This document shows positions 4,307 to 42,193 of a DNA stretch of 42,193 bases, piece after piece. The position numbers and the translations under genes are program-made. Source of the stretch: a virus. Under the pieces are notes generated by a model, which had not been told where the DNA came from, made no database searches, and worked only from the letters and a program-made list of their open reading frames with translations. The first letter of the stretch is position 1. The number at the start of each line of letters is the position of its first letter. Where the stretch lies: positions 1 to 42,193 of the IMG/VR virus record IMGVR_UViG_3300017963_000414. One strand, given 5' to 3'.

Positions 4307-4312
4307 TGGTGG

Positions 4313-4385
4313 TCCCCTGTAGCTCAACAGGCAGAGCAAGTGGTTTGTAACTACTAGGTTTGAGGTTCGAGTCCTCGCGGGGGAT
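4313..4385 (+). tRNA. tRNA-Thr (anticodon UGU)
   Basis: A complete cloverleaf folds by eye. The acceptor stem is 4313-4319 with 4378-4384 (one G-U). The D stem is GCTC/GAGC (4322-4325 with 4334-4337). The anticodon stem is AGTGG/CTACT (4339-4343 with 4351-4355), around the loop TTTGTAA with anticodon TGT at 4346-4348. The variable loop has five bases. The T stem is TGAGG/CCTCG, with loop TTCGAGT at 4366-4372. Discriminator base 4385 is T and CCA is not encoded. It sits in the sense direction inside the late operon. The acceptor end (GGGGGA, 4379-4384) lies four bases before the GTG start of the next gene, where it could also serve as ribosome site. It would read ACA threonine codons (and perhaps other ACN). 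Confidence 0.9.
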
Positions 4386-4388
4386 TTT

Positions 4389-16215: not shown

Positions 16216-17288
16216 TGGGGATTCGAGTCAAGCACGGAGAGGGCGACATTACGGCCCTGGCGCAACTTGCCGCCTTGGCCGGCGCTACTGAGGCCAGGAC
16301 ACCGCAGGCACCGCGAGTCGATCCCCAAGGGGCCCCGCGAGGCGGCGGCGGTGGTGGCGGCGGCCGAACGCGGACTAGCCGCGGCCCAATGATGGCCGAC
16401 TATGGCCGGCTGCACTACCCGTCTGATCGCGAGCTAGCCGCCGAGGCGAAAACGCGAGAGATGGAGTATCAGCGGAAGTTGATCGAGCAGGAGGAAGCTC
16501 AAAAGCGGGCGATTCCGGTTGACTTCAAGTATACGCCAAAGCAGCGGGCTGAGATTGCAAGGCTTCAAAATGCCAAGCAGCAACTCACACAGAACAAGCG
16601 ATATTCCGAACAGGAAAAGGCGCTGCTTGCGCAGGAGATTGACACGCAAATTGATACAATCAAGCCGACTGGTATTCCCCGCGATCCAAGTGCCCCGCAG
16701 TACCCGGAAGGTCGTGGGCCCGGGGATACGTTCCAGGAGCCGGATGGCTCGTGGTACACGATCGACCAGGACGGCAATAAGAAGCTCATGTTGCGCTACG
16801 ATCAAACAAAAGAATACATTGAGCAGCAGGCTGCAAGGAGGCGAGAGGAGAAGATTCTCGATATTCGACACAAGTTGATTGCAGACAAGATTAAGACGAA
16901 AGATAAGCTCGGTATGGAGTCAGAGCGTTATCGCACACCAGAGGAAGTGGACCAAGCGATGGCGATTATTCTTGGCGAAGCACCGGAAGGTGGGGTGTAT
17001 CGCGAGGACTTGGAGTCTGAATTACGCAAGCGCATTGCCGCGAAGAAAAAGGAAGCTGTGCCGAAAAAGCCGAAGAAACGCGAGTACATTGGATGGGCCC
17101 GCAACCTCGGCGTGAAGGCAACGGAGGAAGAAAAAGGTATGCCGCGTGAAGTGCAGATTGCCCAGGCGTTTTTGCGGGAGGTTGGCCAGCGTGCTGCTGC
17201 TGGTGTCGAACCTCCGGCGCAAATGGCGGACGCTGTGAACCAGGCGACTGCGGTACTGGAGTGGTGGGACGCGAAGAATGCCGATTGA
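16215..17288 (+). CDS. Probable internal virion (ejection) protein with glycine run and coiled coils
   Basis: This 357-residue protein begins at a TAATG junction. A low-complexity segment with eight consecutive Gly (residues ~43-50) is followed by long charged helices, e.g. 'QRKLIEQEEAQKRAIPVDF' and 'RRREEKILDIRHKLIADKI'. There is a short beta motif 'PDGSWYTIDQDGNKKLMLRYD' and a Lys-rich tract near residue 280. No enzyme motif is seen. Position between a small helical protein and the 1513-residue ejection protein (11-base overlap with it) argues for an internal core protein. A tail accessory role cannot be excluded. Confidence 0.5.
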   Translation: MGIRVKHGEGDITALAQLAALAGATEARTPQAPRVDPQGAPRGGGGGGGGRTRTSRGPMMADYGRLHYPSDRELAAEAKTREMEYQRKLIEQEEAQKRAIPVDFKYTPKQRAEIARLQNAKQQLTQNKRYSEQEKALLAQEIDTQIDTIKPTGIPRDPSAPQYPEGRGPGDTFQEPDGSWYTIDQDGNKKLMLRYDQTKEYIEQQAARRREEKILDIRHKLIADKIKTKDKLGMESERYRTPEEVDQAMAIILGEAPEGGVYREDLESELRKRIAAKKKEAVPKKPKKREYIGWARNLGVKATEEEKGMPREVQIAQAFLREVGQRAAAGVEPPAQMADAVNQATAVLEWWDAKNAD

Positions 17289-20200
17289 TCGCGATGTACT
17301 GAACTTCGGCCGGCAATTCAGGGAAGGGGCGCTGGAAGTGCGCGAAAAGGGCGTCAATCAAGATGTCCTGGAGGTTGGCCGCAATCTCAGGGATTATTAT
17401 GCGCAGCAGCCGCCGAAGCGTCAGGAGTTAACGGAGGCGGAGCGCCGCCAGTCTGAGCAGATTATCGAGCGCGAGCGGCTGCTGGCGCAGGCCAGCAAAG
17501 AGCTTGGTGAGTCAAACTGGCCGGGCGTTAAGGCGTATGCAATTGAGGCTGGGGCGGATATTGTCTCGCCGATTGCCAGATTGACCGGCCACGATGAGTA
17601 TGCCGATCGGATGAATCGCTTCGCGGATGCGGTCGAGCAGGTCCAGCGAAAGCGCGAGCGTGGCGGGATCGTCCCTGACGTTATTCAGAGCGGCGTCCGC
17701 GGGGCTGGACGATCCCTCACGACAATGGGTGCCGCCGGGATGGCAGGCGGCCCCGCCGCGGCGATTCTCGCGGCCTCCGGCCAGGAGGCGAACCGGGCCA
17801 TTACTGAGGGGCGGGACGCCGGGCTGAAGGGCACCAAACTGGCCGGCTATGCAGTTAGCCAGGGCGTTATCGAGGGAGCCCCGGCCGCGGTCATGCAGAA
17901 AATGGGCCTGGGGGGCGTCGAAACCATGGTTGCAGGGAAGCAGGCCGTGGCTGGCGGGGTCCGCGAGGGACTAAAGCGGCTCGGGATGGCAATCGCCCAG
18001 GAAGTCCCGGAAGAACTCGTGACTGAGATCAGCCACGGCGTGGCCGCGAAGGTGGCCGACGTGGACCCCGAGGCCCTCACGAAAGACAGCCTCAGGCAGA
18101 TAGTCAATGAAACGACAGTTCAGACGGTGATTGCGTTGGCATTTGCCGGGTCCCCGGGGATCGTGCGGCAGATGAGTCGCGAAAAGGTGGCTCGGGTGAC
18201 TGGCGAGATCGTGGCCTACGCCAAAGAGGGGCGGGTCCCATCGCGGAAAACCTGGAAGAAATGGGGCCTGGCTCCCGAGTACGGCGAGTCTCGCAAGCAG
18301 CGGAGGGCGTTCACGGAGGAAGTAAGTAAGGCGTTTACGGCCGCTCCAGAGGCCCGAGGGGCCGAGACGGCCCAGGAGCCGGCCAAGGCCCAGGAGGCCG
18401 TGAGCGAGCCGCAGACGGACGCTGACAGGGCGGTAGCGGCCCAGGAATCGCCGGCCGTCGAGCCGCAAAAGGCATGGGAAGTATTTAAGGTGGGGAAGAC
18501 GACCGTAGTAAAGAACCCCACGATTCAGGACAGGCAAGAAATATCGGCAGAGTTCAGAGGGAAGTATCCCAGCGCCCCGAAGGGCGAGCCAAGGACGAGA
18601 AGTACGACAGACTCCGAGGGTAACGTATACCTCTGGATAGCTGATAAGACTCACGCCGAGATCGAGCCGGCAATCAGCCGGAGGTACGGCACGGCAGTCA
18701 GTCAGAACCCGCCTGTAGCCGCTGAGCCGGCCAGGGTCCTCCAGCAGAGGGCCATCGGGATCGCCGGCAACCTAACGACGGAGGCCCTGGAGTCAGGTGC
18801 TCCGCTTCCGGCGGACGGCATTCACGCGCCAGAAACGGCCGCCAAGCCAGGGGAGAGGAAGAAGTCGCCCGTAGCCTCGAAAGCACGGGCGGCGGCCGAA
18901 GACCTTGTGTCGATAGCGTCCCCGGTCGCAGCCGGTGGGCGGCGGGCCAGGCGAGCGGGGCATATCCTGCGTGGCCAGATGGCTCGTGCGGCCCAGTGGG
19001 ATGAGGCGTCTAAGCATTCGCTCGATAAGATTGAGCGGTCGTTCTACAAGATGTCACCCGATGAGCGACTTGAATTCATCGACCGCATGGAGTCTGGGAC
19101 AGAGCAGCCGGGTGAGTTGAACGCCGTCGCAAAGGTAATCCGAGGTGAGTTGGACGCGGCGCGGGAGCGTGTCCAAAAGGTCGGGAAGCTGTCGAAATTC
19201 AACGAAGACTACTTCCCTCACCTGTGGAAATCCAGCCCAGAAGCGGACACGGTGCTCGGTCAGATTTTCCGGGAGACCTATCGGAAGTCTGGCTTCCTCC
19301 GTAAGCGGGTTATCCCGACTGTAAAGGAAGGTCGTGAGGCTGGCCTTGAACTAGTGACTGACAACCCGGCTGAGTTGGCGTTCATGCGGATTCACCACAT
19401 GAACGAATATGCGGCGAAGACGGAGGCAATGGGGCTGCTGAAGCAACACGGCCTAGCTGTGTTCGTGCCGGCCAGCCTGGAGAAAGATTATCTGCCGAGT
19501 GGGTTCAGGTTTGTCGATGATCCGTCGTTTTTAGTGCAAACGTCCGGAGACGTGACAGTCACCGAAGTGTTCGACAAACTACTCGTTGATCAACTCACGT
19601 CAGTCGCAAACTCTCTGGGAGTAGCGACAAGACGGGTAACGAAGCTGGAGTCTTTCGGTGAGACCGTCACGACAAAGAAGGGGCGGCGGATCATCAAGAC
19701 GCGGACGGGGACCCCCGTAGCGACACTCGCACACGAGATCGGGCATAATATTGGCGAAATCTACGGCCTGTACGATTACATGGTCGAGAATGGCGGTAAG
19801 GCGGTGCGGCGGGAGTTGGACGCGCTGTCGTCACTCCGCGTCGAGAGATCGATACCAGAGACGGAAGGGTTCGTCGAATACTCCAAGACGCCAGAGGAGC
19901 AGGAGGCTGTTATCTTGGAGGCGTGGCTTGCAGCGCCGGAGAAAATGCGGGAAGTTGCGCCGGAGGTAACTGGGATGTGGCAAGACTTCCTGGCTGCCAA
20001 CGAGCCGCTGAGCCCGCTGCTAATGCTGGACCGCTCGCTCGTGCTTGGGACGCAGGAGCAGACGATTACACAACAGGGCGTGAGGGTATTGGGGCGGTGG
20101 GCGATGCCGAATGAGGTCGCTGGCATGATTGATAACCAGTTATCTCCTGGGTTGAGGGCCAACCCGAACGTCGCTGTTCGCACGCTGTACAACACCGCGC

Positions 20201-21819
20201 GAGCGTTCGGTAACGCAATGAATCAAGCTAGCCTGTCGCTGTCCGGGTTCCATGCACTCAATGTTATGACTGACGCGATCGCCACGCAGACTGGCGTGTC
20301 GATTCTCAAGATGCTCCGCGGTAACGTGTCGCAGGGAGCCAAAGAGTTGGTCACGGCCCCCTTTGCCGGCTTCAAGTCGCTGTGGCAGGGCGATAAGCTA
20401 ATCAAGGCGATGCGCAACGATCTTGACAAGATTAAGAACGACGAACTGGCGTACTTGATTGAAAATATCATCGGGGCAGGCGGCCGGGCCAGCATGGACC
20501 CCAGATACTACAACAGGTCGATCAAATCAATCAGGGATACGCTTTACAACTTACGGTACGGGGCCCCAATGGAAAAGGCGTCCTCTGCCGTCAAGCTCCC
20601 GGTACAGAGCATTTTCGCGACGCTAGAGGCGACGGCAGCGCCTATCATGCAGTACATGGTGCCGCGACTAAAGCTAGGAACGTTCCATTACTTGGCACGC
20701 GACGTGTACAGCAGATGGGGAACGCTTTCCGAGGAGCAAGTTGCGGAGCAACTGACGCAGGCGTGGGATTCAGTCGATAACCGCCTTGGCCAGCTAGCCT
20801 ACGACAATCTGTTTTGGAACCAGTACGTCAAAGATGTGTCCATGTTGGCCGTGCGGTCAGTAGGCTGGAACCTCGGTAGTATCCGTGAGTACGGCGGCGC
20901 AGTTACGGACATCTTTACCACTAAGGAACGGAAGGCACTCGGCGGGGAACTGATTAGCGGCAAGCAGGCTTACGTGATTGGGGCGGCAATTTCGTATGCG
21001 ACCCTCGGAGCTATATTGACCTACCTGCTTACGGGAGAGGCCCCCAGGGAGTTGCGGGATTACTTTTTCCCGCCCACCGGCAATCGGAACCCCGATGGAA
21101 GCGTTGAGCGAATTGGCCTGCCGACCTACTCTCGTGACGTGTATTCGTGGACGCATGATCCGATGCGAACAGCGCATCACAAGGTGCATCCGATGTGGGG
21201 TACTTTCCTGGATATGTGGAGCAATGAGGACTATTACGGAACGGAAATTCGGAACGCAGATGACCCGTTGATGGCCCAGCTAATTGACAGCGTGCAGCAT
21301 GTCGGCGAAGCGTATATACCGTTCAGTGTCAAGAACTATATGCGGATGCGCGAAGCGAAGGAACCGGCTGTCCAGGCGGCTGTTACGAGCGGTCTCGGAA
21401 TCACGTCTGCCCCTGCGTACATCACGAGAAGCAACGCACAGAAGTTGGCGATGCAGTGCCTCGCGAACAAAATCCCGACTGGCTCCAGGACGCGAGAGAA
21501 AGCTGAGAGAAGCAAGAGGCGCAAGGGGCTAGTTCGGCGATTTCGGGCCGACGAGGAAGTTACGCCAGAAGGACTGGAAGGGTTCGCCGGCACAGAGCGA
21601 AAAGGGATTCTGGCGGAATCGAGGCTGACACCGCTCCAGGCGTCAGTCAAGAGACTATCGCTGCGCGAATCGTTGGACGTTTTCCTGCAAGGGACAGCCG
21701 AAGAGCGCAAGCAACTTTGGCCGATCATTGCGGCAAAGCGCAATAACGCGAGAACGATAGACCAAGAGTTGGCTAAGTATTACGTTGAGGTGGCAAACCT
21801 GTTTCTTTCTGAGGAGTAG
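17278..21819 (+). CDS. Large internal virion / DNA-ejection polyvalent protein with zincin motif
   Basis: The protein has 1513 residues and is the largest gene here. The N-terminal third is helical with a Gly/Ala-rich segment near residues 140-165. A low-complexity linker lies near 350-410. Around 560-720 there is helical sequence typical of podovirus internal proteins ('GQMARAAQWDEASKHSLDKIE', 'FNEDYFPHLWK'). A metallopeptidase motif HEIGH occupies residues 819-823, with a downstream Glu near 881 ('LEAWL') as candidate third ligand. The C-terminal ~450 residues ('SLSGFHALNVMTDAI', the hydrophobic stretch 'VIGAAISYATLGAILTYLLTG', 'TRSNAQKLAMQ') resemble the LPD38 domain of large polyvalent proteins. 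It is probably injected with the DNA, where the peptidase could act on the envelope or host proteins. Confidence 0.65.
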   Translation: MPIDRDVLNFGRQFREGALEVREKGVNQDVLEVGRNLRDYYAQQPPKRQELTEAERRQSEQIIERERLLAQASKELGESNWPGVKAYAIEAGADIVSPIARLTGHDEYADRMNRFADAVEQVQRKRERGGIVPDVIQSGVRGAGRSLTTMGAAGMAGGPAAAILAASGQEANRAITEGRDAGLKGTKLAGYAVSQGVIEGAPAAVMQKMGLGGVETMVAGKQAVAGGVREGLKRLGMAIAQEVPEELVTEISHGVAAKVADVDPEALTKDSLRQIVNETTVQTVIALAFAGSPGIVRQMSREKVARVTGEIVAYAKEGRVPSRKTWKKWGLAPEYGESRKQRRAFTEEVSKAFTAAPEARGAETAQEPAKAQEAVSEPQTDADRAVAAQESPAVEPQKAWEVFKVGKTTVVKNPTIQDRQEISAEFRGKYPSAPKGEPRTRSTTDSEGNVYLWIADKTHAEIEPAISRRYGTAVSQNPPVAAEPARVLQQRAIGIAGNLTTEALESGAPLPADGIHAPETAAKPGERKKSPVASKARAAAEDLVSIASPVAAGGRRARRAGHILRGQMARAAQWDEASKHSLDKIERSFYKMSPDERLEFIDRMESGTEQPGELNAVAKVIRGELDAARERVQKVGKLSKFNEDYFPHLWKSSPEADTVLGQIFRETYRKSGFLRKRVIPTVKEGREAGLELVTDNPAELAFMRIHHMNEYAAKTEAMGLLKQHGLAVFVPASLEKDYLPSGFRFVDDPSFLVQTSGDVTVTEVFDKLLVDQLTSVANSLGVATRRVTKLESFGETVTTKKGRRIIKTRTGTPVATLAHEIGHNIGEIYGLYDYMVENGGKAVRRELDALSSLRVERSIPETEGFVEYSKTPEEQEAVILEAWLAAPEKMREVAPEVTGMWQDFLAANEPLSPLLMLDRSLVLGTQEQTITQQGVRVLGRWAMPNEVAGMIDNQLSPGLRANPNVAVRTLYNTARAFGNAMNQASLSLSGFHALNVMTDAIATQTGVSILKMLRGNVSQGAKELVTAPFAGFKSLWQGDKLIKAMRNDLDKIKNDELAYLIENIIGAGGRASMDPRYYNRSIKSIRDTLYNLRYGAPMEKASSAVKLPVQSIFATLEATAAPIMQYMVPRLKLGTFHYLARDVYSRWGTLSEEQVAEQLTQAWDSVDNRLGQLAYDNLFWNQYVKDVSMLAVRSVGWNLGSIREYGGAVTDIFTTKERKALGGELISGKQAYVIGAAISYATLGAILTYLLTGEAPRELRDYFFPPTGNRNPDGSVERIGLPTYSRDVYSWTHDPMRTAHHKVHPMWGTFLDMWSNEDYYGTEIRNADDPLMAQLIDSVQHVGEAYIPFSVKNYMRMREAKEPAVQAAVTSGLGITSAPAYITRSNAQKLAMQCLANKIPTGSRTREKAERSKRRKGLVRRFRADEEVTPEGLEGFAGTERKGILAESRLTPLQASVKRLSLRESLDVFLQGTAEERKQLWPIIAAKRNNARTIDQELAKYYVEVANLFLSEE

Positions 21820-21823
21820 CACT

Positions 21824-22249
21824 ATGAGATTGTTGCAATTGCTTTCGTTGTTGAGACGTGTGCCCGTCCGCGATCTGATTAACTTCCCAGACGACCTGAG
21901 TGACAGCGAGGACGTGCGCCGCTGGACTATGGCGGCTATCGAGACGGGCGTTGTGCTCGCCGAACGTACCGTAATCGAGATCGACGATACGATTCTTGAT
22001 TTCGCTGCCGATTTGGTTGCCAGAGATGAGGCGTGGGCGCTGATTCACGGCGTCGTCCTGGCGGTTATTGAGGGGCGATTCACGGCCGAGCAGAGCCTCC
22101 AATGTTCGCAGGAGCTTCAAGAGGTTACTGAGTGTGCATTCAACCCCATGATGATTTTCGCGATCATCCAGGCCGTCCAGGCTGGTATCAAGATCCTGAA
22201 GGCGCTGCGCGAGGCCCGTCAGCAACGTCAGATTTCATTTGCTGTGTAA
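21824..22249 (+). CDS. Small hypothetical protein after the ejection gene
   Basis: The protein has 141 residues from ATG 21824, with GAGGAG ten bases upstream; a longer frame from 21785 would run into the previous gene. The start 'MRLLQLLSLLRRVPVRDL' is short and amphipathic. The centre ('IEIDDTILDFAADLVARDEAWALIHGVVLAVIEG') and the end ('MMIFAIIQAVQAGIKILKALREARQQ') are hydrophobic helices, perhaps membrane-associating. The stop TAA is immediately followed by the strong ribosome site of the lipoprotein gene. It could belong to a lysis cassette, but nothing in it is diagnostic. Confidence 0.5.
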   Translation: MRLLQLLSLLRRVPVRDLINFPDDLSDSEDVRRWTMAAIETGVVLAERTVIEIDDTILDFAADLVARDEAWALIHGVVLAVIEGRFTAEQSLQCSQELQEVTECAFNPMMIFAIIQAVQAGIKILKALREARQQRQISFAV

Positions 22250-22259
22250 GGAGGTACCT

Positions 22260-23252
22260 GTGAGACGACTGCTCTTGATTCTGCTGTTAGCGTTGCCGGG
22301 TTGTGTGCCCATGTCGGACGGCGCATGCCCGGATGATGATTGTGATAAGTGCCCGAAGGGCGGCTGTCCGTCGCAGGAATTGCCGATCCCAGAGCCCGGC
22401 GACCCGATCGTCGATCCAGAGCCGGAGCCGTTCGATCAGCTTTACGAATACCTGAAAGCGACCTGCCGTGTACGCGGCGGAGGTTCCGGCGGGAGTGGGT
22501 GCTGTTTTGCGATTGACGACAAGTACGTCTACGTACTCACTTGCCGGCACGTCGTCGGGCGAACGAAGACATTCATTGTCGAGTTCTGGTTGGACGGCCA
22601 TATCACTGGCGAGTACAAGGCGACGGTCGTGAAGGCCCTGAAAGTTGATGCGGCGATCCTTAAGATTCCGGTGAGTGCGTTCAAGGAGGGCGAGTTACCG
22701 AACGCAATTCCTATCGGCGAGGCGTCCCCGGAAGAGGATACCGCGATTATTTCGATCGGCTGCCCAGGGCTCTCATGGCAATCGCTATGGGAGGGGCATG
22801 TCAAGGGGGGCGCGAACATGAGCCCAAAGTACAACGGCGGCCGGACAAGCTTCACGTTCGTCCCGCCGCCTAAAGGTGGCCGGTCTGGCTCCGCGATCTT
22901 CCAGGACGGCAAGATTGTCGGAATCTTGTGGGGTTCCGATGGCGGGATCGGCTACGCCGTGCGCTGCGAGGATTTTCGCAAGGGGGCCCTGAGTGCGATT
23001 GGCAGCCAGGAGGGTTCCGGTAATTTCTTTTTCAGGGCCGACTGGTGCCGATTCTGTCCGCAGATGAACGAGATTGTAGTTCAGTTGGTCCAGGAGGGGG
23101 TCGACATCCAAGTGATTGACTATGACGAGAATACGACGTTCGCCGAGATGTACGAGATCGGTGGCCTGCCGGCCTACGTGAACCGGCTGGGCGAGACGCT
23201 TTCTGGGGTACAGCCGATCGACCGGCTGCGCGAATTCTACGGGAGGGAATAG
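22260..23252 (+). CDS. Lipoprotein: trypsin-like serine protease fused to a thioredoxin domain
   Basis: The protein has 330 residues. GTG 22260 is preferred because AAGGAGG lies just upstream; the longer 22239 frame overlaps the previous gene. A lipoprotein signal 'RRLLLILLLALPGC' gives lipidated Cys15. A Cys-rich patch and a Pro/Glu linker (to ~60) follow. The protease domain carries His97 (TCRHVV), Asp130 (VDAAIL) and Ser209 (GRSGSA), a full catalytic triad in trypsin/HtrA order. Residues ~252-330 are a thioredoxin-fold domain with W-C-R-F-C at 262-266 and the cis-Pro motif 'GLPAY'. It would be membrane-anchored outside the cytoplasm. It lies between the ejection protein and the holin-like gene, so lysis, envelope processing or superinfection exclusion are possible roles. 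Confidence 0.8.
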   Translation: MRRLLLILLLALPGCVPMSDGACPDDDCDKCPKGGCPSQELPIPEPGDPIVDPEPEPFDQLYEYLKATCRVRGGGSGGSGCCFAIDDKYVYVLTCRHVVGRTKTFIVEFWLDGHITGEYKATVVKALKVDAAILKIPVSAFKEGELPNAIPIGEASPEEDTAIISIGCPGLSWQSLWEGHVKGGANMSPKYNGGRTSFTFVPPPKGGRSGSAIFQDGKIVGILWGSDGGIGYAVRCEDFRKGALSAIGSQEGSGNFFFRADWCRFCPQMNEIVVQLVQEGVDIQVIDYDENTTFAEMYEIGGLPAYVNRLGETLSGVQPIDRLREFYGRE

Positions 23253-23253
23253 G

Positions 23254-23520
23254 ATGAGATGGCTTGCGTGTGGGCCGATATGGGGAATGGCTGTGCTCTT
23301 GGCGACCGAGGGGGCCCCGGGGATTCCGCAAATCGCCCCGGAGATGCTTCAGGGCGGGGCCCTGGCGGTCCTCGGCTGGACAATATACTATGTGCTGTCG
23401 AGAGTCGGCCCGGCCCACACGAAGGCCCTGACAGAGCAGCGAGATGCCTTCCTGGAGGCTTTGGCTGCTGAGCGGAAGGAGATTCGAGAACTGCTTGCGG
23501 CGCTCAGGAGGCCAGACTGA
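23254..23520 (+). CDS. Holin-like small membrane protein
   Basis: The protein has 88 residues from ATG 23254, two bases after the lipoprotein stop, with GGAGGG upstream. It has a short hydrophobic N-terminus (residues ~1-17), one clear transmembrane helix ('GGALAVLGWTIYYVLSRV', ~34-52) and a charged C-terminal coiled coil ('EQRDAFLEALAAERKEIRELLAAL'). The size, single or double membrane helix, charged tail and place at the end of the late operon just before a terminator fit a holin or other lysis-membrane protein. No endolysin is seen next to it, so the assignment is tentative. Confidence 0.5.
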   Translation: MRWLACGPIWGMAVLLATEGAPGIPQIAPEMLQGGALAVLGWTIYYVLSRVGPAHTKALTEQRDAFLEALAAERKEIRELLAALRRPD

Positions 23521-23544: not shown

Positions 23545-23575
23545 GAGCCGGCCACGTCCATGGCCGGCTCTTTTT
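23545..23575 (+). terminator. Strong rho-independent terminator closing the late operon
   Basis: GAGCCGGCCA (23545-23554) and TGGCCGGCTC (23561-23570) pair perfectly around the six-base loop CGTCCA and are followed by TTTTT. It ends the rightward late transcript before the lysogeny region. Confidence 0.92.
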
Positions 23576-23903: not shown

Positions 23904-25061
23904 ATGGTGCGCCCCGAAGTCGCTGAGTACCGAGAGTGGAAGCTAGCCCGCCCCGACTGGCCTCTGACGGTCCATCCGAGCGGCCAGTGGAGTAAAAAGG
24001 TCAGGGGGCGTGTCCACTACTTCGGCCCGCTGACCGATCCCGACCGGGCGCTGCGACTCTGGCTCCAGGAGCGCGACCACCTGCTGGCCGGGCTAATCCC
24101 GCCGACTCAGAACGGCAGCATGACGGTCGGGGAACTGGTCGCCAGGCATCTCATGGACGTAGACGACCGGATCGTCACTGGCCAGCTTTCACCCAGGACT
24201 CGCCACGACTATCAGGCCGCCAGTCAACTCCTGGAGGATACCCGGCTCGCCGGGGTGCCGATCGCGTCTCTCGGGCCAGAGCACTTCACAGCGGTCCAGA
24301 GCGCCATGGAGCGCCGGGGCTGGGGCCCATCGACGATGCGAAATCGCATCACGGCCGTCCGGACTGTCTTCCGCTGGGGTCGTGAGATGGGGCTGTACGA
24401 CCGAGAGGTTCGCTATGGCCCGAGATTCAAGGCACCTGGAATCCACGCAATCGAGTACGAGCGAGAGGAGCGCGGTGTATCTCGCTTTCTGGACCGGGAG
24501 GTAATTCTGGCGGCACTTCGGGTCGCAGAGCCCAGTATGCGGGTTGCGATCCTGCTAGGGATCAACTGCGGCTTCTATCAGAGTGATACGGTCGCCGTGA
24601 CGCTCGACCGGCTCCACCTGGACGGCGAGATTCCCTACCATGATTTCCGGCGAGTCAAGACGAAGCGCCGTCGCATGGCGGCCCTTTGGCCCGAGACTGT
24701 TACGGCGATCCTGGATTACCGAGACAACCATCGTAAGCCGGTCGACCAGACGGAGCGGCGACTTCTGCTGACCAGGCGGCGACGCGCACACAGCGGGCGG
24801 GAAGCCCTAGAGCGGGCGTGGTGTAAGCTGCTGGCAGACAAGCATCTCCCTGGTGCCGGAATCGGCTCTCTCCGCCACACCTACGCCACTGTCGTGGACC
24901 TCGTGCCCGATCAAGCCATGATCGACCTTACGATGGGGCACGCCCCAAGATCGCTTCAGAAGCGGGTCTACTCGCAACTCAATCTCAATGAACTAGGGAG
25001 GCTACAGAAAATAGCGAATACTGTACGCGAGTGGTTATTTGATGGATCGGTGCAGGATTAG
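23904..25061 (+). CDS. int: Tyrosine site-specific recombinase (phage integrase), planctomycete-type active site
   Basis: The protein has 385 residues. ATG 23904 is chosen because TTGGAGGG precedes it; a TTG 14 codons upstream lacks a site. N-terminal residues ~1-70 form a small arm-binding-type domain ('WPLTVHPSGQWSKKVRGRVHYFG'). Residues ~85-180 are the SAM-like core-binding domain, and the remainder is catalytic. Visible active-site residues are Arg324 (SLRHTYAT), His346 (MGH) and the nucleophile Tyr356 (VYSQL), plus Lys in 'RVKTKRRR'. The usual first Arg (GxR) is replaced: 'INCGFYQSD' has Tyr225 there. The His three before Arg324 is Gly. The 'LGINCGF' signature is one I associate with Planctomycetota recombinases. 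It would integrate and excise the phage. Confidence 0.85.
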   Translation: MVRPEVAEYREWKLARPDWPLTVHPSGQWSKKVRGRVHYFGPLTDPDRALRLWLQERDHLLAGLIPPTQNGSMTVGELVARHLMDVDDRIVTGQLSPRTRHDYQAASQLLEDTRLAGVPIASLGPEHFTAVQSAMERRGWGPSTMRNRITAVRTVFRWGREMGLYDREVRYGPRFKAPGIHAIEYEREERGVSRFLDREVILAALRVAEPSMRVAILLGINCGFYQSDTVAVTLDRLHLDGEIPYHDFRRVKTKRRRMAALWPETVTAILDYRDNHRKPVDQTERRLLLTRRRRAHSGREALERAWCKLLADKHLPGAGIGSLRHTYATVVDLVPDQAMIDLTMGHAPRSLQKRVYSQLNLNELGRLQKIANTVREWLFDGSVQD

Positions 25062-39425: not shown

Positions 39426-39505
39426 TGGTCCGCGTCGGGCAGTTCTACGTTTGTCCTAACGCGGACTGGGCTGGGAAGTGCGGGAAGCTATTCCCCCTCC
39501 TCTAA
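39320..39505 (+). CDS. Small zinc-ribbon protein overlapping the methyltransferase end
   Basis: This 61-residue frame starts at ATG 39320 (39299 also possible). Half of it overlaps the methyltransferase in another frame. The C-terminal part 'CKECGCLMVRVGQFYVCPNADWAGKCGKLFP' is a convincing four-Cys ribbon, like topoisomerase C-terminal zinc fingers. The part before it is basic and may be incidental. Its end overlaps the minus-strand SprT-like gene by 18 bases, tail to tail. Confidence 0.5.
   Translation: MHPDREVQRLLFRDSKRTRPRDRETPRACKECGCLMVRVGQFYVCPNADWAGKCGKLFPLL
39372..39405. other. 10-bp inverted repeat at the methyltransferase 3' end
   Basis: CACGCCCTAG (39372-39381) and CTAGGGCGTG (39396-39405) are perfect reverse complements with a 14-base loop, inside two overlapping frames. 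There is no T-run, so it is not a terminator. It may be a protein site or an mRNA hairpin. Confidence 0.5.
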
Positions 39506-40063
39506 GTCCTCCGGAGACAAGGTGGAGCCACACGGGCACACCGGGAGCCCGACTTCAATCCACTTCTGCGTCGTGCGCACTGTATACCCGCAGTCCTGGC
39601 ATGACAGCTTCTTCATGCGAGTTGATTGCTTCTTTCCATCGTCCTCGGCATACGCAAGCCGGGCGTGTGGATACCGGCCGATCCCTTTGGCGATTTCCTT
39701 CAGCCCGGCTTTCAGCTCGCTACCGGCCACCGAAGTGGCCGTCTTTCCCTCAAGCCCAACGGCCCGCGCCAGGGCGCCGAAGCGCTTGCCGTGCTTTTCC
39801 TTAAATCCGACCGCACAGTGTACTAGCTCGTGAACGAGCACGGCCGACACTTCAATCGGATCGTCCAAGAGTGGCGAGATGAAAATCTCAAAACAGCCAT
39901 CCTGGCTGTGCTCGTTACTCCACGCCTCTCCGTCTAACTTTCGCGCCCCTCTGGACGGCCACGAGCACGAGACCCGGATCTTCTTGGGGATCGGCTGTCC
40001 AGCTTCGCGGAACATTGGACGAAGCGCGCTAACGCACTCCGTCAGCCATCGCTCTCTGTTCAT
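39488..40063 (-). CDS. SprT-like zinc metalloprotease
   Basis: This is a 191-residue minus-strand gene (ATG at 40063; GTG 40066 overlaps the previous stop). A zinc metalloprotease motif 'VHELVHCAVGF' (HExxH) and a downstream 'KHGKRFGAL' His match SprT/Spartan-type domains. A C-terminal zinc ribbon ('CQDCGYTVRTTQKWIEVGLPVCPCG') completes the SprT layout. Spartan homologues remove DNA-protein crosslinks; the role of phage copies is not established. It is the last gene of the leftward operon and meets the rightward operon at 39488-39505. Confidence 0.82.
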   Translation of the reverse strand: MNRERWLTECVSALRPMFREAGQPIPKKIRVSCSWPSRGARKLDGEAWSNEHSQDGCFEIFISPLLDDPIEVSAVLVHELVHCAVGFKEKHGKRFGALARAVGLEGKTATSVAGSELKAGLKEIAKGIGRYPHARLAYAEDDGKKQSTRMKKLSCQDCGYTVRTTQKWIEVGLPVCPCGSTLSPEDLEEGE

Positions 40064-40491
40064 CACTTACCTTTCTCTAATGCGTCACGTCGTCTGTTAA
40101 TCCACCGCCGGCCACACACCGACACGAGGTTCCGCTTGTTCCGCTTCGCTAGGTCGCGAAATAGCGGATGGTCGATTACGCCGAGCAGATACAAATCGTG
40201 TAATTCAATCGCAACGGACAGCAACCTCTTGCTTTCCCGCTGCGCTCTAAGCTCGTACAGCAGCGGCCCGCGGGTATGGGTTGGCAATTGAGTGTTGCCG
40301 CACATTGGACAAAGCCTGCGAAGCCTTTCCCGCCGTTCCGCGGCCCGCCTCTCCTGTTGTTGGGTATTGAAACAGCGTTTACACACTGCCGCCACTCTCT
40401 GAGCGCCACCGGGCCTAGCCGGGCCTTTGAGGGCGAAGTCCCCCAGTGGCTTAGTGTGCCCGCAACGAGTGCAGGCTTTATGCGTCACCAT
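40063..40491 (-). CDS. Zinc-module protein related to HNH N-terminal domains
   Basis: The protein has 142 residues. The N-terminus 'CTRCGHTKPLGDFALKG' with 'CKRCFNTQQQERR' is the same CxxC...CxxC module seen in the endonuclease at 8519 and the protein at 27183. It is followed by 'CPMCGN' with a single further Cys. The C-terminal half is helical and basic ('KRNKRNLVSVCGRRWINRRRDALEKGK'); there is no HNH motif. It overlaps both neighbours by a few bases. It probably binds DNA; no enzymatic function is visible. Confidence 0.6.
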   Translation of the reverse strand: MVTHKACTRCGHTKPLGDFALKGPARPGGAQRVAAVCKRCFNTQQQERRAAERRERLRRLCPMCGNTQLPTHTRGPLLYELRAQRESKRLLSVAIELHDLYLLGVIDHPLFRDLAKRNKRNLVSVCGRRWINRRRDALEKGK

Positions 40492-40705
40492 TAGCCAGTT
40501 CTCCGAAGGTTCTCAGTACAATTTCCCTGCGCTCTGCTGTTCCGTCGGCCAAGTAGAGCAGGATTCCGGCTAAGGTGTGCGCCGTCATTGGCGTGAAGTC
40601 GATGGCCTCCAGCCGCTTTTTGTAGCGGTTGTATCTCTGCGCCGCGGGATTGCCGCGCGGTCGCTTCGGCTTGCGGTCCGGGAGCGAGTTTGTTGGGATT
40701 TTCAT
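40478..40705 (-). CDS. Small basic hypothetical protein
   Basis: The protein has 75 residues. It has a basic, Pro/Arg-rich first half ('PDRKPKRPRGNPAAQRYNRYKKRLEAI') followed by a helix ('TAHTLAGILLYLADGTAERREIVLRTF'). Overlaps of 14 and 4 bases with neighbours support translation. No known family. Confidence 0.55.
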   Translation of the reverse strand: MKIPTNSLPDRKPKRPRGNPAAQRYNRYKKRLEAIDFTPMTAHTLAGILLYLADGTAERREIVLRTFGELANGDA

Positions 40706-41121
40706 GCGGCCCCCTGCTGATGTTTGCAGCGCTTGATTCTGGCGTAGTCGCCCGACGATTTGTAATAGGTGCCGTAATAGCGCAGCCCGTTGATTGCGTA
40801 CACGTCGATCGGCACGCGAACACCGCCGAAGTTATCGCGATACTCGCGACCGAAAACCACCTTGCCAAGCTTCTCGCCACTCCAGGTGGTTGCCTTTGCC
40901 TTCTTCTCGTTGATGTAGAGAAAGTATCGGTCGGGCTTGTCGCGCAGGAACTCGTACACTTCCACTGCGCTCTGTTCTTCGTTCGTCACGTCCGGCACAC
41001 TGGCCGGCTTGTCGCTGGGACGATAACTCACCCAGCCGGTACGCTTGTCTTGAATCGAATTCAGCCATTTATACAGGCGGTCGATTCGAGCGCGGATTGC
41101 CTTGTATTCTGCCTCAGTCAT
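40702..41121 (-). CDS. Hypothetical protein with charged, tyrosine-rich C-terminal half
   Basis: The protein has 139 residues. ATG 41121 is chosen because it overlaps the upstream stop (ATGA). The longer frame beyond it is Arg-rich and lies in another gene. Helical start ('TEAEYKAIRARIDRLYKWLNSIQDK'), then a mixed alpha/beta body with 'KPDRYFLYINEKKAKATTWSGEKLG' and 'YGTYYKSSGDYARIKRCKHQQ'. The body looks like a small nucleic-acid or nucleotide-binding fold, but no family is recognised. Confidence 0.55.
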   Translation of the reverse strand: MTEAEYKAIRARIDRLYKWLNSIQDKRTGWVSYRPSDKPASVPDVTNEEQSAVEVYEFLRDKPDRYFLYINEKKAKATTWSGEKLGKVVFGREYRDNFGGVRVPIDVYAINGLRYYGTYYKSSGDYARIKRCKHQQGAA

Positions 41122-41303
41122 AGCTTGCCTTTTCTCAGTGATTCGCAGGTGATAAACCCGGCGCGGTGCTCGTGCTTGAACGTGCGCTCCATTCCGCGCC
41201 GGTCTAATTCCGCTTCGGCCCGGGTGTAGTACGGCCCGCAAGGCTCCACGCCCTGCAAGCCGACCACCCACCAGCCGTCTTTGCGCTGTTCAACTCCCGA
41301 CAC
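41118..41303 (-). CDS. Small conserved-type phage protein
   Basis: The protein has 61 residues from GTG 41303, with AAAGGGAGGTGG upstream and a TAGTG overlap with the upstream gene. 'RKDGWWVVGLQGVEPCGPYYTRAEAELDRRGMER' is a compact pattern that I have seen in short phage and prophage proteins ('DGWWV.G......GPY.TR.EAE.DR.G..R'). Function unknown. Confidence 0.6.
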   Translation of the reverse strand: MSGVEQRKDGWWVVGLQGVEPCGPYYTRAEAELDRRGMERTFKHEHRAGFITCESLRKGKL

Positions 41304-41596
41304 TAGGCCGCCACCTCCCTTTTCGCTCTGCTGATCGGATCGGTTGGCAATTCGTCTTCCGTGACCGGCTGCGCTCCACTCATTGGGCCGTAGTAGAGAA
41401 GCCGCGCGACCCCATTGCCATGCCACGGAATTAGCTCAACCGTAACGCAATCCACGTCATTTTCGTCGACGTGGGCCGTGCATCGAACCGCGCCCGACCA
41501 TGAGGCGCATTGCGTCACCATGCCGGAAGCGCGCGACCCTAGCCGGGTCGCCTGAGTCTTGGCTTTGCCTTCGCAGGACCCATAGAAATGTGCCAT
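41303..41596 (-). CDS. Small conserved-type phage protein (MAHFYG family style)
   Basis: The protein has 97 residues from ATG 41596 (GGAG ten bases upstream). The start 'MAHFYGSCEGKAKTQATRLGSRASGM' followed by 'VRCTAHVDENDVDCVTVELIPW' is a beta-rich pattern seen in many phage and environmental sequences. There it precedes a Gly-rich short loop ('HGNGVARLLYYGP'). It is probably a small structural or regulatory protein. No biochemical role is known to me. Confidence 0.6.
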   Translation of the reverse strand: MAHFYGSCEGKAKTQATRLGSRASGMVTQCASWSGAVRCTAHVDENDVDCVTVELIPWHGNGVARLLYYGPMSGAQPVTEDELPTDPISRAKREVAA

Positions 41597-41690
41597 CGGT
41601 GCATTCTCCAAAGGTGTGAAACGGAAACATGGAAACAAGCGCCCCGCCCGGCTGCGACCCCCGGGTTACGCGTTTCGGGGCTTGCGGTGT

Positions 41691-41705
41691 TTAACCGCGC
41701 GTCAT
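41691..41705 (-). other. Four-codon minicistron behind a strong ribosome site
   Basis: On the minus strand CGAAAAGGGAGGTGG precedes ATG 41705, but the frame is only Met-Thr-Arg-Gly-stop. The same 15-base ribosome-site sequence recurs before GTG 41303. It may be a leader minicistron, or the start of a gene broken by mutation. Confidence 0.35.
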
Positions 41706-41772
41706 GGTGTCCACCTCCCTTTTCGTTGAGGTACGCTCTGTCTGTCGGTGCGTTACTCTCACCCCATGCCGT

Positions 41773-42193
41773 TCAACTTGCTGGCCAAGGGGCGACGTGC
41801 AACAGCCCACCGCAATAGGGGCAATGGCCGTTGCGGTCTTCGTCGACCCACACAACCCCCACGCAAGGCTCCGGCCGTTTAGGCAATTCCATGGGTGGGC
41901 GTAGCTGGTCGGGCACAATCGGCGCAGGGTAGTCTGGCTTTTCGTCGGTTGCCGGGTAGTCTTGTAACTCCGTGTGCCCCTGCCCACTACACCCATCCGG
42001 GAGCCAATGACACCCGTTGTCCGTGTCCCAATACTTCCCGCAATTATCGCAGTAGATGGTCGCCCGGGCGTTGTCGAAGATCGCAGTTCCGTCGCAGTCA
42101 GTCACGTCGAACGCGGCCGGCATTGTGTAGCCCCCGCGCACGTCACAGCCCCCGTGAATCTGCAGCATGACGTGCGCGCCGTCATCATCCGAC
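41773..42193 (-). CDS. Zinc-ribbon protein of unknown role, 5' end outside the window
   Basis: The minus-strand frame is open to the right edge (42193), so the start is outside; the Met at 42168 is probably internal, because the sequence before it ('SDDDGAHV') reads on smoothly. The visible ~139 residues have 'LQIHGGCDVRGGYTMPAAF', then a treble of Cys ('IYCDNCGKYW', 'NGCHWLPDGCSG'), a Pro-rich linker and 'CPYCGGLLHVAP'. It looks like a zinc-binding phage protein; the first part is reminiscent of antirestriction or portal-adjacent small proteins, but no family is certain. It heads the leftward operon as far as can be seen. Confidence 0.55.
   Translation of the reverse strand, partial: SDDDGAHVMLQIHGGCDVRGGYTMPAAFDVTDCDGTAIFDNARATIYCDNCGKYWDTDNGCHWLPDGCSGQGHTELQDYPATDEKPDYPAPIVPDQLRPPMELPKRPEPCVGVVWVDEDRNGHCPYCGGLLHVAPWPAS

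Follow-up and report, generated by a model that had tools for sequence, protein, structure and literature searches.

A lipoprotein-type phage protein that joins a trypsin-like protease domain to a thioredoxin-like domain

The window, the whole stretch of 42,193 nucleotides that makes up IMG/VR virus record IMGVR_UViG_3300017963_000414, encodes a protein in which a trypsin-like serine protease domain is joined to a thioredoxin-like domain, both with intact catalytic residues, behind a putative membrane anchor. The gene is part of the late gene run, and the protease half carries cysteines that go with the fusion. In our estimate there is about an even chance that the protein is a late envelope enzyme that helps to break the host envelope at lysis. 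Each of the two domains comes from a known family; as far as our searches reach, their combination, the anchor, the cysteines and the place in a peptidase/thioredoxin module are undescribed. The features of the gene are as follows.

22260..23252, + strand: fused lipoprotein-type protease-thioredoxin protein, 330 aa, GTG start (open frame)
22248..22255, + strand: Shine-Dalgarno-like aaggaggt, overlapping the stop codon of the preceding gene (read from the sequence)
22260..22304, + strand: signal segment ending in a lipobox-like L-P-G-C, residues 12-15, with Cys15 at 22302-22304
22305..22427, + strand: variable Pro/Cys-rich tether, residues 16-56 (low pLDDT; dN/dS 0.287 for residues 16-72)
22428..22994, + strand: trypsin-like protease domain, about residues 57-245 (Pfam, alignment, model, fold matches)
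22464-22466, 22503-22505 and 22542-22544, + strand: Cys69, Cys82 and Cys95, protease-domain cysteines specific to the fusion
22548-22550, 22647-22649 and 22884-22886, + strand: catalytic triad His97, Asp130 and Ser209
23022..23243, + strand: thioredoxin-like domain, about residues 255-328 (Pfam, PDB matches by sequence, alignment, model)
23046-23048 and 23055-23057, + strand: Cys263 and Cys266 of the thioredoxin site W262-C263-R-F-C266, which is accompanied by Pro304

Domains and conservation of the fusion protein

The Pfam family Trypsin_2 matched residues 78-222 over its whole profile (1-144) with 56.2 bits against a curated cut-off of 27.6 (E 8.4e-15). Thioredoxin matched residues 258-306 with E 3.3e-4 and 21.1 bits, slightly below its curated cut-off of 23.5, and exceeded that cut-off in two other fusions (G034, 32.8 bits; G037, 27.2 bits). 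Compared with PDB by sequence, the single fusion protein matched thioredoxins with a best E of 9.6e-5, and a profile of six fusions matched thioredoxins at E 1.2e-7. His97, Asp130 and Ser209 aligned with H, D and S in 21/21 unfused phage trypsins, and the WCxxC site and the cis-proline Pro304 aligned in 23/23 phage thioredoxin rows; triad, CxxC and Pro304 were all invariant in the 6/6 aligned fusions. The initial annotation had placed a lipobox Cys15, the triad and a W-C-x-x-C site in one protein of 330 residues, and the triad and thioredoxin site were found as described, with Cys15 in a lipobox-like segment.

The signal segment departs from the usual lipobox consensus in having Pro at position -2. 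Gly-Cys was present at the N-terminal anchor in three of the four lineages of the fusion (the window, L159 and L160), while in the fourth (L158, contig 3300017963_000558) a longer hydrophobic segment replaces the Gly-Cys lipobox.

An AlphaFold2 model was built on a 50-row alignment of 6 fusions, 21 phage trypsins and 23 phage thioredoxins. Its mean pLDDT was 80.0 and its pTM 0.60, with signal and tether (residues 1-24 and 31-41) below 50; a six-row model, with a pLDDT of 53.3, was set aside as too poor. Since the alignment was picked by these same families, the model counts as support and not as independent proof. The top Foldseek match to PDB was Rv3671c (3lt3, E 1.6e-12), with DegS next, and the best VIA-align match was DegP chain 3otp_F (Z 24.6 over 188 residues, rmsd 2.8). 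The serine protease proposed in the initial annotation is thus predicted to have a protease fold, and its double beta-barrel is modeled as the DegP/DegS/Rv3671c type. Matches to the protease domain took up the fold-search lists, so that the evidence for a thioredoxin fold comes from the sequence and from strands and helices that follow the expected order in the model. Whole-protein Pfam scans found no PDZ domain, and the C-terminus matched Thioredoxin instead; as a protease that lacks a PDZ domain, the fusion is no Deg protein. Among predicted viral structures in BFVD, the best match was A0A516LES5 (323 aligned columns, TM 0.45/0.48, rmsd 20.6), which could be a second two-domain protein.

Six IMG/VR contigs besides the window carry the fusion, with identities to the window down to 54%: 3300017971_000076 (100%), 3300029267_002130 (98%), 3300005613_000084 (83%), 3300017971_000072 (57%), 3300017963_000558 (55%) and 3300033148_004150 (54%). 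IMG/VR was scanned twice, by alignment of the whole protein and with the thioredoxin domain alone; both scans gave the same six contigs, and neither returned an unfused close relative of either half. Between the window and the 83% homologue, dN/dS by the Nei-Gojobori method was 0.108 overall, 0.094 for the protease and 0.040 for the thioredoxin domain, with synonymous sites near saturation (dS 1.13). These codon comparisons show purifying selection on the fusion protein. An assembly error or a pseudogene was rejected on the basis of seven records in four lineages, the lack of internal stops and the overall dN/dS.

In the records searched outside IMG/VR the fusion did not turn up. There was no tblastn match of the whole fusion protein in 50,697 phage records and none of the fusion protein in 72,556 plasmids, and no named phage relatives were found for the DNA of the region. 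PHROGs gave weak matches only (E 6.9e-4, to a family without a name), and queries with three unfused trypsins yielded either nothing or partial matches only, at 26-31% identity. No paper describing such a fusion was found among the full texts of open-licence PMC papers. The initial annotation had called the fusion unusual for a phage and had held that close homologues among plain host chromosomal genes would speak against it. All sightings of the fusion so far are in phage records. A chromosomal homologue was looked for without success in 84,980 species genomes scanned with short exact peptide patterns that can detect close relatives only, and at E 1e-8 in 387 genomes of the Cerasicoccus phylum, a search limited to a few scored candidates per genome and with no positive control among those genomes. 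Weak thioredoxin-only matches were observed in 3/5 host genomes at E 0.01. What is unusual is the fusion and not its parts, which are found repeatedly, both within this phage group and outside it, as separate secreted trypsins and as lipoprotein-type thioredoxins.

Related phages, likely hosts and gene order

The capsid protein of the window matched the NCBIfam podovirus capsid (E 1.7e-33), and a capsid profile brought at least 80 viral contigs. Among the 84,980 species genomes, the profile identified six cellular loci spread over five genomes, with capsid identities of 71% in Cerasicoccus frondis, 67% in Verrucomicrobia UBA6015, 59% in a Lentisphaerae MAG that has two copies, 44% in a Kiritimatiellae MAG and 42% in a Verrucomicrobia MAG. 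Within the 387 phylum genomes the capsid was present in just two, both already identified. Since all six loci carry the names Verrucomicrobia/Cerasicoccus, Lentisphaerae or Kiritimatiellae, they place the host side in Verrucomicrobiota and give no support to the planctomycetes, the hosts given in the initial annotation; planctomycete genomes were covered by one-pattern scans. Judged from the capsid sequences, this uncultured phage is related to viruses of Verrucomicrobiota bacteria.

The Cerasicoccus and Lentisphaerae prophage relatives that were examined held no peptidase/thioredoxin module, which marks the module as accessory. On the single Lentisphaerae contig (CAMKJU010000001.1), one prophage occurs twice (L045 and L046), and in each copy a 2846-aa protein takes the place of the 1200-1800-aa one of other phages. 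In another relative, G003 (53,099 bases), each contig end carries a part of the large late gene (positions 3-410 and 52187-53098), which gives this record the look of a circularly permuted genome that is nearly complete.

Phage lysis of Verrucomicrobiota and their kin is little described, and no account of it was found in the open-licence literature searched. Verrucomicrobiota-type bacteria were once termed peptidoglycan-less, and the title of a 2010 paper reportedly gives Cerasicoccus frondis that label. Later work detected sacculi and diaminopimelic acid in relatives of the Cerasicoccus group (PMC5303756). A proteolytic enzyme might replace a peptidoglycan hydrolase in these phages, although peptidoglycan is thus present in relatives of the likely hosts.

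The fusion is the last but one gene of the late run, which lies on the + strand with the virion genes from the capsid region on. Its neighbors are the following.

17278..21819, + strand: 1513-aa protein with no family match, the "ejection protein" of the initial annotation
21824..22249, + strand: 141-aa protein, with a homologue at the same place in G003 and G037
23254..23520, + strand: putative holin-like 88-aa protein, starting one base past the stop codon of the fusion gene
23545..23570, + strand: terminator-like stem-loop of 10 pairs, then TTTTT, which ends the late gene run
23904..25061, + strand: integrase, the next gene downstream

The gene had been placed between an ejection protein and a holin-like gene. 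The holin-like gene does follow directly, and a homologous one lies directly 3′ of the fusion in all four lineages; on the other side, the 141-aa gene intervenes, and the 1513-aa protein had no match in Pfam or PHROG that would support its naming as an ejection protein. An HExxH-like zinc protease motif, HEIGH, was read in a homologue of the 1513-aa protein. The 88-aa protein is called holin-like from its size and hydrophobic segments; it matched no holin family, and ten homologues scanned singly gave no convincing Pfam match. The fusion gene begins 10 bp after the preceding gene and ends 1 bp before the holin-like gene, and no sigma-70-like site was found on the + strand from 21000 to 23254. 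Terminator-like sites of this kind numbered 2, compared with 2.2 expected by shuffling, a count no higher than in shuffles. A tRNA-Thr (tgt) gene lies among the virion genes at 4312-4386, and matches to SprT-like (E 1.5e-4) and Band_7/SPFH (E 2.6e-13), one protein each among the 48 scanned, are noted for the region 39488-42168. No peptidoglycan hydrolase was found among the best 25 of 34 Pfam families for these 48 proteins (43 from the window and 5 from G001); the putative terminase and portal proteins had no Pfam family match either, and because the same library misses them, the missing hydrolase is weak evidence.

Separate genes for the same kinds of enzyme are present in related phages. Trypsin_2 was found in 5/12 and 12/50 related records (17/62 in total, five of the 17 being fusions); these counts are low estimates, as L010 holds a trypsin yet its record gave none in the 12-record search. 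Thioredoxin was found in 7/50 related records, two of them with fusions. In G013 and L206 the genes follow the order secreted trypsin, C92-like peptidase, C39-like peptidase, a protein without CxxC that we read as thioredoxin-fold-like, small membrane protein, lipoprotein-type thioredoxin and holin-like protein. The C92-like profile matched a cysteine peptidase in PDB at E 4.1e-4 and YiiX at 0.33, and the C39-like profile gave one weak match to a C39-like peptidase (E 0.68). The arrangement varies among relatives: G007 has the same families, with trypsin and thioredoxin flanking a different small membrane protein; G040 has the module set without the thioredoxin; in G036 a trypsin occupies the place of the thioredoxin-fold-like gene; and G032 has a papain-like gene (PF00112, E 6.1e-5) plus a trypsin. 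In Verrucomicrobiota-type phages, a late module of exported trypsin, C92-like and C39-like peptidases, a two-ended membrane protein with thioredoxin-like sequence and no CxxC, a small protein bearing the motif YSVGDYSGM and an anchored thioredoxin recurs at L140:4733-9101, L206:1704-5864, L036:2238-6228, L142:3532-6500 and L151:6245-10474. The fusion resembles a compact version of this recurrent exported-peptidase/thioredoxin module.

The holin-like gene has company of this kind in part of the relatives. A holin profile search of the 50 related records gave a homologue in seven, and the gene directly upstream was a thioredoxin or the fusion in 4/7 (G013, G034, G037 and G038) and neither in 3/7 (G010; G019, which has a 70-aa lipoprotein-like protein there; and G040). 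A thioredoxin also lies directly upstream of the holin-like gene in L206, L207 and L208; as these were found through a thioredoxin search, they were not counted as a test of this adjacency. Lipoprotein-type thioredoxins made up 11/79 phage thioredoxin matches; the lipobox pattern matched 15/79, and L261, L262, L263 and L282 were left out because the pattern fell inside the domain. Further viral contigs with lipoprotein-type thioredoxins are L209, L213, L215, L231, L232, L256, L267 and L284. Other unfused trypsins are encoded immediately ahead of the putative terminase gene and not by the holin-like gene (for example, G011, G014 and G022). This second site of secreted trypsins, directly before the putative large terminase gene, was likewise observed at L015:3663-4556, L051:2834-3841 and L072:3990-4865.

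Proposed role of the fusion protein

We propose that the fusion protein would be expressed late, exported and tethered to the membrane at its N-terminus, by a lipid on Cys15 or, in one lineage, by the hydrophobic segment. The trypsin-like domain would cut envelope proteins, in cooperation with the holin-like product of the adjacent gene. The thioredoxin domain would set the state of Cys69, Cys82 and Cys95 near the catalytic His, and folding or activation of the protease would depend on disulfide exchange; substrate disulfides may be loosened as well. A lysis role is favored by the place of the gene in the late run before the holin-like gene, together with the separate trypsins, anchored thioredoxins and papain-like peptidases found there in relatives. 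Several points weigh against it: the holin-like protein matched no holin family, 3/7 records from the holin profile search have neither a thioredoxin nor the fusion directly upstream, the Cerasicoccus and Lentisphaerae prophages are without the module, some unfused trypsins adjoin the putative terminase gene instead, and terminator-like sites are no more frequent than in shuffles.

The redox part of this proposal comes from the cysteines. In alignment A9, which took in 21/26 trypsin candidates (near copies L178, L179, L185, L193 and L195 were omitted) and 23 of about 79 thioredoxins, Cys82 and Cys95 were present in 6/6 fusions and 0/21 unfused trypsins. Cys69 was present in 6/6 fusions and in none of the nine unfused rows that reach its column, the trypsin rows being trimmed, while Cys168 was shared by 6/6 fusions and 5/21 unfused trypsins. 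Cys95 lies two residues before His97, and a motif count at its place, which admits only Ala, Cys, Ser or Gly and includes near copies, gave Cys in 6/6 distinct fused and Ala in 33/33 distinct unfused trypsin-like ORFs. The CxxC sites differ as well. Immediately before the second cysteine the fusions have Phe, Tyr or His, compared with Pro in 67, Ala in 10, Met in 1 and Tyr in 1 of 79 phage thioredoxins. Reducing thioredoxins typically have proline at this position, and His or an aromatic residue is found there in the PDI, DsbA and DsbC types. Because Cys82 and Cys95 occur only in the fused rows compared, the thioredoxin domain may control the disulfides of the protease, and the fusion-specific cysteines and the CxxC residue pattern together suggest disulfide exchange between the halves.

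In its most specific form, the proposal describes a redox-gated lysis protease: disulfides near the catalytic His would hold it latent, its own thioredoxin would activate it in cis when the holin acts, and it would belong to a set of peptidase/thioredoxin cassettes, exchangeable for one another, with which Verrucomicrobiota phages supplement or replace peptidoglycan hydrolases. We hold this version to be doubtful. A lysis module of secreted peptidases and anchored thioredoxins, in which one protease has its thioredoxin in cis, would represent a new control of lysis enzymes, and the fusion offers a directly testable set of residues.

A simpler reading without redox control, in which two enzymes share one tether, the thioredoxin serves substrates only and the extra cysteines just stabilize the protease, is possible, and we lean against it. 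In its favor, phages often carry a thioredoxin or a trypsin by itself, and several unfused trypsins are themselves rich in cysteines, at other positions. Against it, Cys82 and Cys95 were found only with the fusion in the rows compared, with Cys95 so close to the catalytic His.

The integrase gene directly downstream of the late run raises a different reading, that of a lysogenic-conversion or fitness lipoprotein: a moron by the lysis genes that serves the envelope of the lysogen, for instance as a quality-control protease. Lambda bor is a moron that adjoins lysis genes. The fold shared by the protease domain with the DegS/DegP envelope stress proteases and the accessory distribution (Trypsin_2 in 17/62 related records) fit such a role, but the fusion is on the same strand as the late genes and tightly spaced with them, no promoter-like site of its own was found on the + strand, and the 387 phylum genomes contained no fusion at E 1e-8. 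We consider this reading unlikely.

The initial annotation had offered superinfection block as one possible use, with the anchored protease cutting receptors or incoming phage proteins. A membrane anchor and an outward-facing protease would suit that task. The late-operon place of the gene favors lysis over it, and the occurrence in relatives of several different peptidases alongside a holin-like gene also speaks against it, making a block on superinfection decidedly unlikely. More improbable still is a virion or injection factor that matures or travels with the large proteins encoded upstream: the fusion does lie downstream of the 1513-aa protein, a relative of which stands upstream in some unfused phages, but each of the four lineages has either an export signal or a hydrophobic anchor, which fits poorly with assembly in the cytoplasm. 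A role in DNA damage or capsid maturation was set aside because of the export signal on the fusion.

Comparison with known systems

The late envelope enzyme proposed here has partial counterparts among known proteins. Like the HtrA/Deg proteases (DegP, DegQ and DegS), it has a trypsin-like envelope protease domain, with DegP 3otp_F the closest at Z 24.6; unlike them, it has a C-terminal thioredoxin-like domain in place of PDZ, and identity in the alignments is about 19-24%. The secreted phage trypsins (L072, L205, L206, G007 and others) share its triad, its fold family and an N-terminal signal or hydrophobic segment, whereas they are separate genes with Ala at the Cys95 place (33/33) and 21-28% identity to the window protein. 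The lipoprotein-type phage thioredoxins L140, L150, L206 and L207 share WCxxC, cis-Pro, a lipobox-like signal and a position directly upstream of the homologous holin-like gene, but they have no protease domain and usually have Pro or Ala before the second cysteine. The o-spanins are phage lipoproteins beside lysis genes, which the fusion resembles in its putative lipid anchor and holin-like neighbor; the fusion differs in being a 330-aa enzyme with two catalytic domains, and no i-spanin partner was identified for it. Two-component spanins depend on disulfides (PMC6139136).

Another parallel is Rv3671c (MarP), the best Foldseek match (3lt3), which resembles the fusion in protease fold and membrane tether. 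It is described as a membrane-tethered periplasmic serine protease with four N-terminal helices, and not a lipoprotein signal, and with no fused thioredoxin domain (PMC4992679). The same paper describes a disulfide that affects the active site, and mentions both disulfide reduction on activation and a disulfide that stabilizes the active site (PMC4992679). Rv3671c is a precedent for a tethered envelope protease in which a disulfide bears on the active site.
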